Part shown: piece after piece, positions 5,598 through 10,549 of the stretch
Layout: every line of letters begins with the position of its first letter
Numbering within the stretch: the stretch's first letter is position 1
From: an uncultured Lachnospiraceae bacterium
GTDB taxonomy: Bacteria > Bacillota_A > Clostridia > Lachnospirales > Lachnospiraceae
Assembly (NCBI GenBank): GCA_947175285.1
Contig: CAMWMM010000099.1
Coordinates: forward strand, 1 to 12,053
Length of the DNA: 12,053 bases
Reading direction: 5' to 3'
Position numbers and translations under genes: made by a program
The notes under the pieces: generated by a model
The model's input: only the letters and a program-made list of their open reading frames with translations
Told to the model about the DNA's origin: nothing
The model's database searches: none

Positions 5598-6869
5598 ATG
5601 ACAGATTATAGAATAAGAAGATATCGCAGATTTTTATATATACTATTAACTGCCGGACTCATTGCATTAATGATAACCGTATATATGGATTATTGGAAAA
5701 AAGTGCCGTCTACGATTAAAATCCGTGCAGGAGTCGAACAGGAACTTGATTTTCGTGTACCGGCATCCGGTGAAATATATCAGGACGAAGCGATAGAGAG
5801 TCTTTCAAGTCAGGTAGAGAGCATTCATGTTAATTTTTCCAAAGGTGTTACACTAAGGGCGAATCAGATTGACCATTATACGATGGACTTGAAATTATTC
5901 GGTATTCTTCCATATAAAAGTGTAGACATTCAGGTTATTCAGGATACCACACTGATACCGTCGGGTATACCAATCGGAATTTATGTAAAAACGGACGGTG
6001 TGCTGGTGGTAGGCATCGGAGAGTTTGAAAATCCAAGCGGGGAAACGGTTTCTCCGGCACAATATATTTTGCAGAGTGGTGACTATATTCTGGATGTCAA
6101 TGGCGAGAAAGTAGAAAATAAAAAACACTTTGTACAGATGATATCAGATTCCGAAGGCGAAGAAATGATTATGACATTACGGCGTGGAGAAGAGATTACC
6201 GAAGTTAAAATAAAGCCGGAGTGTAATCAGAACGAGGAATGGAAGCTTGGCATTTGGATTCGTGACAATGCACAGGGAATTGGTACATTGACTTATGTAG
6301 ATACGGACGATACATTTGGAGCCCTTGGGCATGGCATCAATGATGTGGATACTTCCACACTTATGCGGCTGGACGAGGGTACTTTATATAAAACGGAAAT
6401 CGTAGGTATTACAAGAGGAACGGATGGATCTCCCGGAGAACTGACAGGATATATCGCATATGAGAATGAGAATATCATTGGAGAGATTACCGAGAATACG
6501 GCGGAGGGTATTTTTGGTACTTTAAAAGATGAAATCGTGCAGCAGACACCTTATGAGGCAATTCCGATTGCCTTAAAGCAGGAAGTGCAGATTGGAGCGG
6601 CACAGATTATCTGTTCAGTCACCGGAGAACCTAAGTATTATGATATTGAGATTACGGAACTGCACCTTGAAGACGGCAATGTAAACAGAGGACTGGTAAT
6701 AAAAATTACGGATGAGGAACTTTTAAGTTTAACGGGAGGTATTATTCAGGGAATGAGCGGAAGTCCCATCATCCAGAACGGCAAACTGGTCGGCGCGGTA
6801 ACGCATGTGCTTGTTCAGGATGCGGCAAGCGGATATGGTATTTTTATTGAAAATATGCTAGTGCAGTAG
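5598..6869 (+). CDS. spoIVB: SpoIVB sporulation serine protease (S55) with PDZ domain
   Basis: SpoIVB is secreted from the forespore into the intermembrane space. There it cleaves SpoIVFA to trigger activation of the pro-sigma-K protease in the mother cell. It has 423 residues (B. subtilis ~426), and its ATG follows an AAAGGAA ribosome binding site. A basic N-terminus (RIRRYRR) precedes one membrane segment at about residues 12-30. A PDZ domain spans about residues 110-205 (GIPIGIYVKTDGVLV through LQSGDYILDVNGEKV). The peptidase domain follows, with catalytic His245 in FGALGHGI and nucleophile Ser389 in GMSGSPI, then GAVTHVL and YGIFIE. The catalytic residues are intact. In spore formers spo0A normally follows directly; here pseudogenes intervene. 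Confidence 0.96.
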   Translation: MTDYRIRRYRRFLYILLTAGLIALMITVYMDYWKKVPSTIKIRAGVEQELDFRVPASGEIYQDEAIESLSSQVESIHVNFSKGVTLRANQIDHYTMDLKLFGILPYKSVDIQVIQDTTLIPSGIPIGIYVKTDGVLVVGIGEFENPSGETVSPAQYILQSGDYILDVNGEKVENKKHFVQMISDSEGEEMIMTLRRGEEITEVKIKPECNQNEEWKLGIWIRDNAQGIGTLTYVDTDDTFGALGHGINDVDTSTLMRLDEGTLYKTEIVGITRGTDGSPGELTGYIAYENENIIGEITENTAEGIFGTLKDEIVQQTPYEAIPIALKQEVQIGAAQIICSVTGEPKYYDIEITELHLEDGNVNRGLVIKITDEELLSLTGGIIQGMSGSPIIQNGKLVGAVTHVLVQDAASGYGIFIENMLVQ

Positions 6870-6936: not shown

Positions 6937-7811
6937 ATGTTAGGCGGTTCAGTATATATAGCATTCATCCGACTTGCTATCAATCTTGTGGGAACAATTC
7001 TGATATTTTCTCTGTTGAGCGAATCACGGTTTAGCCGGAAAAAGACGATAGTCTGTTACGGGTGTTATGGCATGCTTCTGGCTGTGCTGGCATGTGGTAA
7101 ATTGGGAAAGCTACGTACGGATGGCAGCATTGGTAATATATATGTGCTTAGCGGGCTGGAAATCTCCATTCTTTTTTTTGAGCGTAATGTGTGGGCGGAT
7201 ATCATTGCACGTATACTGTTGATTGCGCTGATTGCATTTTTGCTCAATACATATGTCAAAGATTCCATAAAGGGTTTTGGCGATTATGTGGAAAAAGAAA
7301 CGGATAAGGTCAGTGTTGCAGCAATGACCGTCTGTATTCTGTTTGGAATCGGATATATTTAAAATCCGGGATTTAACAGCGGAATGACACTGCTGCGTAT
7401 CTATCAGATTTTAATAAATTTTATTGATATGCGCAAATACTGCGGTCAACAATATTCTGTCAGCTTATACCGCAAAGGCTAAGGGGGATTGATGTTACGC
7501 TTGATGTTGAACTGGGCAGAAATCTGGTGATACCGAGTATTGATTTGGTGGCAATCCTTGCCAATGCCTATGAAAATGCGATTTATGCCTGTATGGAAGT
7601 AAAAAAGTTTCCGGATGAACGGGAATGTTTTATTCATTTGACTCTCAAAAAAAAGAACGAAAAGCCTAAAACAGAGTTTACGGGCGGCGTTGGAGTTTCA
7701 AGTATTATCAGAACAGCAGAAAAGTATGGCGGATATTATGATTTTAAAAATGATAATGGTGTGTTTGTGTTCAGGCTGCTTATGAATATAGAACCTGAAA
7801 CCAGGGGATGA
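6937..7811 (+). pseudogene. Decayed GHKL (AgrC-type) sensor histidine kinase
   Basis: This is the remnant of a membrane sensor kinase of the peptide-quorum-sensing type. Frame 1 from ATG 6937 (AGGGG ribosome binding site) encodes membrane segments, ending with YVEKETDKVSVAAM and a stop at 7360-7362. Recognisable sequence (GMTLLRIYQILINFID) continues in the same frame past the stop. The signal moves to frame 2 at about 7442 (AVNNILSAYTAKAKG) and to frame 3 after the run of five G near 7484-7488 (IDVTLDVELGRN). Frame 3 holds the ATP-binding N-box ILANAYENAIYAC and the GGVGVSSIIRTAEKYGG block, ending with stop 7809-7811. The His phosphorylation segment is absent, and the ATPase domain lacks the piece between its N-box and this GG block. 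Total remnant is ~290 codons against an expected ~430. It cannot encode a working kinase. Confidence 0.85.
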
Positions 7812-7820
7812 GACCTAGGA

Positions 7821-8395
7821 ACGGAGAAAAAACATCCGAAAATAAATTTTGCGATTAACTGCTTTGAGAGTGTGGATGAATTGCTTTATATGATTAAAGA
7901 AAAAAACTATTCGCCGAATTTAATCTTTTTGGATATTTTCATGTCGGGTCATAAGGGACAGCAGGATTCTATGGGAATGGAAGCTGCGAAAGAACTTCGC
8001 GATATGGGAAACAGGGCGAATCTGGTTTTTCTTACCACATCCAGAGAATATGCGCTGGAAGCTTTTGACGTAGACGCTTCACAATATTTGTTAAAGCCGG
8101 TCACGGAAAAGAGATTGTCCGATGCGCTGGACAGATTCTTGGAGTTTGCAGATGCGGAACGAAAAAAATACATTTTACTCAGAATAGACGGAAGGCTTGC
8201 AAAGGTGCAGGTAAATGATATTGTCTACTGTGAGGCGCAGGGGAAAAAGCAATGCCTGCATCTTGTAAACAGCGGGGAGATTTTTCTGCGCATGATATTT
8301 ATCTGAATACCGGTAAGAAAATCTATCTGCCAAGAGGAGCATACAGGACACTGAAAGAGATGTATTTTAGGTATTACTGTGAAGAGGATTTCTAA
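7821..8395 (+). pseudogene. Decayed LytTR-family response regulator
   Basis: This is the partner of the upstream kinase remnant. Recognisable receiver sequence begins at about 7827 (KKHPKINFAINCFESVDELL) in the same frame as the last kinase fragment. It has no start codon for the missing ~30 N-terminal residues, which carry the acidic pocket. The phospho-acceptor segment NLIFLDIFMSG, the FLTTSREYALEAF segment and the conserved Lys in LLKPV are present. The LytTR DNA-binding domain starts (RIDGRLAKVQVNDIVYCEA) but stops at 8304-8306. Its C-terminus reappears in frame 2 from 8294 (DIYLNTGKKIYLPRGAYRTL) and ends with TAA 8393-8395. Roughly 40 residues of the DNA-binding domain between the pieces are lost. 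Translation could begin only at an internal GTG (7872) and would give no functional regulator. Confidence 0.83.
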
Positions 8396-8414
8396 AATGC
8401 AAAGGCGATGACTA

Positions 8415-8447
8415 AATGTTCCATAGCGCCATAACATTGTTTATAAT
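8415..8447 (+). promoter_or_regulatory. Probable promoter of truncated spo0A, with dyad
   Basis: A perfect TATAAT at 8442-8447 lies 38 bases before the spo0A start. A weak -35 (TTCCAT, 8419-8424) is exactly 17 bases upstream. An inverted repeat AATGTT/AACATT (8415-8420 with 8433-8438) straddles the spacer and could be an operator. No sigma-H-like sequence was recognised. Confidence 0.4.
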
Positions 8448-8485
8448 ATGTGTAACGCACAGGTTGAGCAAGAATGGAGGAGCTT

Positions 8486-9004
8486 ATGGAACAACTAAAT
8501 TTAACCGTAACAAGAGATAATGAAAAGGTATATCAGATTTTGAATAATTTGATGAGCGGGGATAAAGAATTTCAGATTATGATAACAGTACCCTCCGGCA
8601 GACAGGAAAGCGTTCTGACAGAAATGAGTGAGATGGTAAAGGGTGAAAAGGAACATGATTTGGAGAAAGATGTTACAAATATGATACATGAAATCGGAGT
8701 TCCGGCACATATCAAAGGCTATCAGTATCTGCGCGAAGCAATTATGATGTCTGTAGAAGATGTGGAAATGCTTGGTTCTATTACGAAAATCCTGTATCCT
8801 ACCATAGCAGGGAAATACCAGACGACGCCAAGCAGGGTAGAGCGTGCCATCAGACATGCAATCGAGGTAGCCTGGTCGAGAGGAAAGATGGAAACACTGG
8901 ATGCCCTGTTCGGATATACAATTAATACGGGAAAAGGAAAACCGACCAATTCGGAGTTTATTGCGCTGATTGCAGATAAAATACGTCTGCAATACCGTGT
9001 TTAG
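8486..9004 (+). CDS. spo0A: Receiver-deleted Spo0A (sporulation master regulator)
   Basis: Full Spo0A (about 265 residues) is the phosphorelay-controlled master regulator of sporulation entry. This one has 172. The preferred start is ATG 8486, five bases after GGAGG. It aligns without gaps to the canonical N-terminus through about residue 38, whereas ATG 8474 overlaps the ribosome binding site. Residues 1-38 look like strand 1, helix 1 and strand 2 of the receiver, but the ADDN acidic pocket reads TRDN, so one Asp is Arg10. The rest of the receiver, including the phospho-acceptor Asp, the switch Thr and the Lys, is absent. Residues 39-57 are a linker-like stretch. Residues ~58-172 are a complete DNA-binding domain: [23 protein letters not shown], recognition-helix region [35 protein letters not shown]. 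The deletion is in frame, and codon use looks ordinary. It could be constitutively active, a dominant-negative form, or decaying. Confidence 0.93.
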
Positions 9005-9053: not shown

Positions 9054-9103
9054 AACAGAAGCAGCTTCTTTGGAAGTTATATCTGAAATTGGAGGGTTAT
9101 TTC

Positions 9104-10549
9104 ATGAAGAAGATTTTATTTGTTGCATCAGAGGGGGTACCTTTTATCAAAACAGGCGGTTTGGCGGATGTTGTCGGCTCCCTGCCCAAATGTCTTGATA
9201 AGGAATATTTTGATGTAAGGGTCATTCTTCCCAAATATACCTGTATGACACAGAAGATGAAAGATTTATTGCAATATAGAACACATTTCTATATGGACTT
9301 TCATTGGAAGAATGAATACGTGGGTATTTTGGAAGCGGAAGTAGATGGGGTAAAATATTACTTTGTTGATAATGAGTCCTTTTTTAACGGATTTAAGCCA
9401 TACAGCGATAACGCATTATTTGAAATTGAAAAATATGCGTACTTCTGTAAAGCGGCGCTGTCCATTTTACCGGTAATCGACTTCAGACCGGATTTAATTC
9501 ACTGTCACGACTGGCAGACAGGATTGATTCCGGTTTACTTAAAAGAGAGATTCCAGGGAAGTGAATTTTACCGCGGCATTAAGACTGTTATGACGATACA
9601 TAACCTGAAATTCCAAGGAAAATGGAATGTAAAAGGGGTTAAAGAGATTACCGGACTGCCGGATTATTTCTTTACGGCTGATAAGCTGGAAGCTTATAAG
9701 GATGCCAACCTGTTAAAGGGCGGTCTGGTTTATGCGGATGCGATTACAACGGTCAGCGATACTTATGCGGAAGAAATTAAAACTGCATTTTACGGAGAAG
9801 GTCTGAACGGTCTTTTATGTGCAAGATCCAATGACCTGCGCGGTATTGTAAATGGTATTGATTATGAAGATTTTAATCCCGAGACAGATAAGAATATTCC
9901 TTTTGCGTATAACGCGATGAATTTCCGCAAAGAAAAAATTAAAAATAAACGTGCATTACAGGAGGAACTGGGACTGACACAGGATGACAAATCCATGATG
10001 ATTGGTATAGTCTCCAGACTGACCGGACAGAAAGGTTTTGACCTCATTGCCTATGTGATGGATGAACTTTGTCAGGATAATGTTCAGATCGTGGTGCTTG
10101 GAACCGGTGAGGAGCAATATGAAAATATGTTCCGTCACTTCGACTGGAAGTATCACGGGAAAGTTTCAGCAAATATTTATTATTCCGACGCACTTTCCCA
10201 TAAAATTTATGCGGCAAGTGATGCATTCCTGATGCCGTCATTATTTGAGCCATGCGGCTTAAGCCAGTTAATGTCCCTGCGTTACGGTACAGTTCCGATT
10301 GTGCGGGAAACAGGCGGATTGAAAGACACGGTTGAACCGTATAACGAATATGAAAGTATTGGTACAGGTTTCAGCTTTAAGAATTACAATGCACATGAAA
10401 TGTTAAGTACCATTCGTTATGCAGAACGCATCTACTATGATAAGAAGAGAGAATGGAATAAGATAGTGGATCGTGCTATGGCAGCAGACTTTTCATGGCA
10501 TGTATCTGCGAAAAAGTATCAGGAAATGTATGACTGGCTGATAGGCTAA
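9104..10549 (+). CDS. glgA: Glycogen synthase (ADP-glucose type, GT5)
   Basis: GlgA transfers glucose from ADP-glucose to the non-reducing end of an alpha-1,4-glucan to extend glycogen. The start is ATG 9104, seven bases after GGAGGG, giving 481 residues (family ~475-485). A TTG at 9089 is in frame but lies before the ribosome binding site. The N-terminal Rossmann domain carries KTGGLADVVGSLP at residues 16-28 (the ADP-glucose-binding KxGGL), then HCHDWQTGLIPVYL and TIHNLKFQG. The C-terminal domain has GIVSRLTGQKGFDL, and the catalytic-site loop SLFEPCGLSQLMSLRYG with Glu382, followed by TGGLKDTVEPYN. The gene is intact. Other glg genes are not in the window. Clostridia accumulate granulose-like glucan around sporulation, which makes its position beside spo0A suggestive but not proof of control. 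Confidence 0.96.
   Translation: MKKILFVASEGVPFIKTGGLADVVGSLPKCLDKEYFDVRVILPKYTCMTQKMKDLLQYRTHFYMDFHWKNEYVGILEAEVDGVKYYFVDNESFFNGFKPYSDNALFEIEKYAYFCKAALSILPVIDFRPDLIHCHDWQTGLIPVYLKERFQGSEFYRGIKTVMTIHNLKFQGKWNVKGVKEITGLPDYFFTADKLEAYKDANLLKGGLVYADAITTVSDTYAEEIKTAFYGEGLNGLLCARSNDLRGIVNGIDYEDFNPETDKNIPFAYNAMNFRKEKIKNKRALQEELGLTQDDKSMMIGIVSRLTGQKGFDLIAYVMDELCQDNVQIVVLGTGEEQYENMFRHFDWKYHGKVSANIYYSDALSHKIYAASDAFLMPSLFEPCGLSQLMSLRYGTVPIVRETGGLKDTVEPYNEYESIGTGFSFKNYNAHEMLSTIRYAERIYYDKKREWNKIVDRAMAADFSWHVSAKKYQEMYDWLIG

Follow-up and report, generated by a model that had tools for sequence, protein, structure and literature searches.

Why is Spo0A phosphorylated, and would its amount suffice to control it? 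A natural experiment on this old question is found in the 12,053-nucleotide stretch of Lachnospiraceae DNA analysed here, which we call the window. Spo0A from which the receiver has been deleted in the laboratory (the sad alleles, the isolated C-terminal domain) is active without phosphorylation. According to the available text of two studies, phosphorylation of Spo0A is commonly regarded as the gate to the endospore, and carrying spo0A serves to mark a genome as capable of sporulation (PMC8340488, PMC11536998); the same text cautions that its presence alone does not confirm sporulation (PMC8340488). A spore-decision protein that lacks the switch and keeps its DNA-binding half suggests that the clade of gut bacteria to which it belongs controls the decision in another way.

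The gene lies at positions 8486-9004 of the window, on the forward strand, as are its promoter elements and ribosome-binding site, spoIVB and glgA. Its reading frame, its 172-residue product and its position are as first described, and a receiver-deleted Spo0A at this place is confirmed as a real observation. Translation is likely to begin at 8486, since another possible ATG, at 8474, runs into the ribosome-binding site read from the sequence, GGAGGAG (8476-8482). Downstream lies an open reading frame that we take to be glgA (9089-10549), which marks the canonical place of spo0A; upstream is an intact spoIVB, encoding an S55 peptidase (5598-6869; PF05580, E 1.1e-83). The product can be divided into three parts: a mini-receiver remnant of residues 1-37 (8486-8596), recognized by receiver homology and pN and beginning with a conserved MEQLN; a linker of residues 38-58 (8597-8659), delimited by conservation and pLDDT, whose length varies by species; and the Spo0A_C DNA-binding domain, residues 63-166 (8672-8983), defined by PF08769, the structures 1FC3/1LQ1 and pN.

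The DNA-binding domain has been kept, as the original prediction held. Residues 63-166 match PF08769 (Spo0A_C) over positions 1-104 of its 104 (E 2.7e-46), and the crystal structures 1FC3 and 1LQ1 of Spo0A DNA-binding domains give an ungapped alignment with residues 55-171. If the 1LQ1 chain is taken to start at residue 148 in B. subtilis numbering, E119, R120 and R123 correspond to E213, R214 and R217, which we take to be the base contacts of B. subtilis Spo0A; none of the three varies among 61 sequences. AlphaFold assigns a pLDDT of about 90 or higher to most of the domain.

What is left of the receiver? A Pfam search of the 172-residue product returned no receiver domain; the receiver with phospho-acceptor Asp by which a response regulator is recognized is lacking. 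Median lengths of 174 residues for 32 short proteins and 266 for 67 full-length ones put the loss at about 92 residues, close to the 95 or so, acceptor Asp included, estimated from the window alone. When residues 1-38 from 22 loci were made into a profile and compared by hhalign with full-length Spo0A receivers (20 loci), residues 1-32 of the short form aligned to the first 32 residues of the full receivers (probability 96.3, E 1.9e-9). Because of this E value we regard the remnant as true receiver homology; by homology it is strand 1, helix 1 and strand 2, much as had been proposed for residues 1-38. The replacement of the acidic pair by Arg10-Asp11 also recurs beyond the window: 28 of the 32 short proteins have Lys or Arg at position 10, which is acidic in full receivers, and D11 is retained in all 32. 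In the AlphaFold model the remnant has low confidence, with block means of 55-69, and forms a helix at residues 12-24 alone, with no strands, so that a folded mini-domain is no more than a candidate; pLDDT falls below 50 in residues 38-54 of the linker.

Conservation follows the same three parts. In the 32 aligned short proteins, residues 1-37 have a mean majority frequency of 0.75 and residues 61-166 one of 0.93, with the linker down at 0.26. A comparison of 11 sister pairs gives a pN of 0.100 in residues 2-37, 0.534 in the linker and 0.024 in the DNA-binding domain, with pS at 0.72-0.78 in all three; synonymous sites are near saturation, and we therefore give no dN/dS for the remnant. With pN so much lower in the remnant than in the linker, the remnant is maintained by selection. 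The suggestion that a natural receiver-deleted Spo0A is under purifying selection is borne out.

By its sequence, the receiver-less gene is the property of a Lachnospiraceae clade and is not peculiar to one genome. Of 7998 proteins scored, the best 120 are 148-222 residues long and include the identical 172-residue protein on 39 contigs. Among the 80 loci of a scan of species genomes, 25 (L001-L025) have the short form and one (L061) an intermediate form; the rest, with few exceptions, encode the full form. glgA lies downstream of spo0A in all of L001-L025 and directly adjoins it in 24 of them (other reading frames intervene in L021), while the upstream neighbours vary from locus to locus. In a tree of GlgA, which is independent of the Spo0A sequence, a branch with an SH-aLRT of 99 sets all 31 short rows apart; one branch further out (96) they are joined by seven full-length loci, among them Lacrimispora celerecrescens and Lachnoclostridium sp. 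An14, which we refer to as the sister clade. This tree holds 95 of 110 loci and 31 of the 32 short ones and was built by a quick method without bootstrap, its long branches being flagged. The synteny with glgA and the single clade on the GlgA tree identify the gene as spo0A in its canonical locus, inherited vertically. Three of the clade loci come from records labelled Acetatifactor. A wider draw of 150 genomes from the same family contained 104 with Spo0A_C, at least 12 of which have a canonical-scoring frame of 179-223 residues (the sequence was read for 8 of the 12). Gene content was surveyed in 25 relatives from the clade (G001-G025), mostly MAGs of unstated completeness, the window's own genome not being among them.

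Several variants of the gene were seen along the way. The short spo0A frame of G062 contains a TAG. L061 (3583-4197) encodes the intermediate Spo0A, 204 residues long, which keeps more of the receiver and by eye carries a Glu where the acceptor Asp would be; it sits elsewhere on the GlgA tree, not among the short rows. L078 (496-2141) carries a tandem pair of full-length Spo0A genes, the first of which, again by eye, has Asn at the acceptor position.

Three simple origins can be set aside. Since the short form is found throughout the clade, it is not a fresh deletion in one genome. Nor is it derived from a phage: none of the 50 viral loci found (many of them cut at contig ends) has a match to residues 1-36, and the gene has chromosomal synteny. 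The third concerns the neighbourhood. Between spoIVB and spo0A, at 6937-8306, lies a broken two-component region, with a GHKL fragment at 7527-7811 and a receiver fragment at 7872-8306 that has no output domain in frame. The original prediction had drawn attention to the short gene standing beside this decayed system. We find no link between them: in 40 other loci drawn, the receiver fragment has no match and the GHKL fragment matches solely an unrelated place in L004.

If the short protein cannot be switched by phosphorylation, how is its own gene controlled? The start could be located in 29 of the 32 short loci and in 59 of the 77 full-length ones; in these we scanned 250 bp upstream of spo0A, reading the forward strand. 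An exact 0A box is present in 3 of the 29 short loci (0.79 expected) and in 49 of the 59 full-length loci (1.64 expected), all expectations here and below coming from mononucleotide shuffles. Fisher's test gives p 3.8e-11, a value that ignores kinship and on which we do not rely; on the tree, receiver loss and box loss are one event each. The three boxes in short loci (L008, L009 and L013) lie off the homologous place. An alignment of 29 short and 7 sister loci places the likely spo0A promoter of the window at a TATAAT -10 element (8442-8447) with a GCGATG element 37 bp 5' of it (8405-8410). GCG stands 36-38 bp 5' of the -10 in 28 of the 29 short loci, in a guided search in which the -10 was picked jointly with the GCG match. 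The GCG element might have been taken for a new control site; it and the -10 are also found in all 7 sister loci, so it predates the loss of the receiver, and we reject that idea. In the sister clade a box lies at -48/-49, 11 bp before the GCG element, reading TGTCGAA in 6 of the 7 loci and TGTCGTA in the other. The homologous place before the clade's spo0A has an exact box in none of 29 loci and a one-mismatch box in 2; in the window this is 8394-8400, and the box is absent. The difference at this place is clear; its cause we infer.

The spoIIG operon, a target of Spo0A, was scanned at 45 of 46 places (one contig ends at the gene). Of 24 short loci, 11 have an exact 0A box in the upstream 350 bp (1.06 boxes expected) and 13 have none; the box is also present in 11 of the 21 others (0.77 expected), which include the intermediate G026. 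We then searched for TTGACA-TATAAT promoters, with at most two mismatches in all and spacers of 15-24 bp allowed. The spacer of the best match is 21 bp long in 21 of the 24 short loci, the other 3 having no match, and 20-22 bp long in 19 of the 21 others. We take the long, 21-bp spacer to be the mark of a Spo0A-activated spoIIG promoter. 0A boxes are thus present at a target promoter, that of spoIIG, in the relatives. Some of the nearest relatives have in their spoIIG locus, after the sigE-like frame, a receiver protein of 660-710 residues; the one of L226 (1580-3673) would also have HD- and GGDEF-like parts.

The reading we favour, with a probability of roughly 0.6, is that the clade has a fixed, phosphorylation-independent Spo0A whose activity would be set by its amount or its partners, positive autoregulation having been removed. 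This was one of the interpretations first offered for the gene, and it is the one that stands as most likely; that of a competitor is unsupported, as is a tie to the two-component system. The receiver would have been cut to its 37-residue remnant, most simply once, in the ancestor of the clade. By analogy with laboratory receiver-deleted Spo0A, the short protein would bind 0A boxes and activate spoIIG without phosphorylation. Since dephosphorylation has no means of turning it off, the amount of the protein would set its activity, through transcription from the promoter with the GCG and -10 elements, which would no longer respond to Spo0A; partners of the remnant perhaps contribute as well. With target sites kept and self-activation removed, control by amount is the simplest circuit. 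The loss of positive autoregulation would have averted a runaway. The remnant itself would most likely serve in dimerisation or docking, which is the weakest step of the proposal.

Alternatively, the remnant may be a switch still. Residues 1-37 could bind a partner protein, a small molecule or another receiver and so gate the DNA-binding domain, giving control by signals without phosphorylation of Spo0A itself. Such a role would fit residues 28-36 (EFQIMITVP), the most strongly kept stretch of the remnant, each at least 90% conserved though outside a full receiver, and it would fit the edges that a lone strand-helix-strand would leave unsatisfied. A similar-looking helix, by eye, and an LQI.LSY stretch precede the DNA-binding domain in two diverged, receiver-less proteins (L164 and L165) with short fronts containing LQIILSY and LQIVLSY. 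They are the third Spo0A_C proteins of G011 and G019; the only other clade genome with a third, G022, has a different kind (see below). However, we found no gene for a partner, the upstream neighbours of spo0A varying between loci, and homodimerisation by itself would account for the conservation. We therefore consider a switch in the remnant doubtful, though worth keeping in view.

Does the clade still sporulate? Many spore genes are retained. In the 25 clade genomes we find spoIIGA in all 25, spoIVA and SASP in 24 each, and spoIVB and two sigF/sigG-type matches in 23 each; a sigE-like frame, judged by place and length, follows spoIIGA in all 16 loci fetched. SpoIIGA, sigF/sigG, SpoIVA, SpoIVB and SASP, taken together as a mark of a sporulation-competent genome, are thus present in nearly all of the 25 relatives, the genomes that this count covers; the SpoIIR signal, another such mark, is not. 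The sigF model is matched only from position 1 to 162-184 in G002-G005, G009 and G010, whose frames are 191-285 residues long, and the end of sigF may have diverged in some members. SASP has one match per genome, compared with 2-3 in 19 of 20 full-length comparators. SpoIIR was found in none of 25 clade genomes with TIGR02837 and in none of 31 with PF09551 (G001-G025 and six further); the latter model finds it in 6 of 7 sister genomes. The SpoIIE phosphatase part is present in 23 of 25, in frames of 394-510 residues that match the phosphatase end of the model only, all SpoIIE matches in the 46 genomes searched being below the curated cut-off. Neither feature is specific to the receiver-less clade: TIGR02837 did not find SpoIIR in 8 of the 20 full-length comparators either, and four of these (G175, G178, G182 and G190) likewise match SpoIIE only from position 403-422 onward.

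The clade also carries other Spo0A_C proteins. A further one is present in 24 of the 25 genomes. In 23 it is a bare domain, in frames of 125-153 residues of the VERAIRNAIEVSW or ..ISW type, with surroundings that we take to be mostly polysaccharide genes; G017 has a diverged 117-residue form in similar surroundings. The second receiver-less Spo0A of about 125 residues (NAIEVSW, RPTNSEYIARIADKVRLD) was seen in L140-L162 and L167-L177, for example at L140:4965-5342. None of the seven sister genomes searched has it, though one carries a stop-interrupted relic scoring 21.8 bits; 8 of 17 other full-length genomes contain bare domains that are more distant, at 66-109 bits. A scan of viral contigs found no close relative of it. 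An exact 0A box precedes it in 4 of 34 cases (0.99 loci expected). The 34 bare paralogues group together (SH-aLRT 93) in a tree of DNA-binding domains that we use solely for this grouping, since it has 74 chosen rows and few columns, gives L049 and L166 branches of length 10 and places the full-length L078 among short ones.

These findings could be read as a lineage leaving sporulation, one of the possibilities named in the original prediction: the phosphorylation input would be lost, the short Spo0A would run a non-sporulation regulon (surface polysaccharide, stationary phase), and the spore genes would be slowly decaying. The missing SpoIIR, the short SpoIIE match and the single SASP match point that way, as does a second receiver-less Spo0A that lies mostly among polysaccharide genes and was not found in the sister genomes. 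Yet the retained spore genes and spoIIG promoter are a good deal for passive decay to have left throughout so deep a clade, and the SpoIIR and SpoIIE features recur in full-length comparators. We judge this reading unlikely, though not remote. Under the phosphorylation-independent Spo0A that we prefer, the programme may nevertheless not end in spores, because SpoIIR is missing and SpoIIE matches at its phosphatase end only. The boldest extension of that preferred reading, to which we give somewhat less than even odds, is that two-component control was abolished, the mini-receiver re-used for dimerisation or sensing, the autoregulatory box erased for circuit stability and the SpoIIR checkpoint dropped, so that spore development would follow rules unlike those of the sporulators studied.

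An intact DNA-binding surface could also compete with a full-length Spo0A elsewhere in the genome, as a dominant negative. The original prediction named this role, and we think it very improbable: a PF08769 search of the 25 clade genomes found no canonical full-length Spo0A and left the short gene as the sole Spo0A proper. The only full-length relative is the third protein of G022 (L166), a distant Spo0A-like paralogue, 24% identical, whose receiver by eye seems to keep its Asp. The receiver has not split off to another gene either. A sister receiver (L049), which matches at 100% identity in the genome it comes from and at 73-74% in two further sisters, gave no split-off Spo0A receiver in the 25 clade genomes; the matches listed are at most 39% identical, and the best are mostly of about 120 residues, CheY-like by length. 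A misassembly or pseudogene, to which only the TAG in the relative G062 lends any colour and nothing in the window's copy does, is next to impossible, because the protein is identical on 39 contigs (among the best 120 of 7998) and 31 receiver-less loci form one clade, with the same architecture in 32 aligned loci and strong purifying selection.

A clade that keeps its spore genes without the phosphorylation gate reveals what the circuit can do without. It is also a warning that calls of spo0A presence or absence in gut genomes can conceal a different kind of protein. One study, in its available part, reports from annotation names a loss of spo0A in some Lachnospiraceae of the human gut (PMC11170972); the short form might be missed by such a judgement. 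As far as the accessible extracts of the open-licence literature reach, a receiver-less chromosomal Spo0A is not reported, and such copies are described from phages only (PMC10294663).

How does the short Spo0A compare with known systems? The truncated phage-borne copies, by the accessible portion of their description, likewise have the DNA-binding domain without the receiver (PMC10294663); they are phage genes, whereas the gene here is chromosomal and at the canonical place. HP1043, in what is available of two reports, is an orphan regulator that is independent of phosphorylation and has a highly degenerate receiver domain (PMC5253667, PMC8345958). It too is a response regulator run without phosphorylation, with a degenerate receiver where ours is mostly deleted. 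The full-length Spo0A proteins of the sister clade, the Lacrimispora/Lachnoclostridium group, share with the short form the DNA-binding domain, the GCG and -10 elements (7 of 7) and glgA in the locus; G188 has spoIVB just before spo0A, and both sister genomes examined, G188 and G192, have the 21-bp spoIIG spacer. Unlike the short form, they have a full receiver with the acceptor Asp, a 0A box in their own promoter (exact in 6 of 7) and, in 6 of 7, SpoIIR. Laboratory receiver-deleted Spo0A is alike in that the DNA-binding domain is freed from inhibition by the receiver. The short form differs from it in being natural and fixed in a clade; its 37-residue remnant is conserved, and its own promoter has changed.
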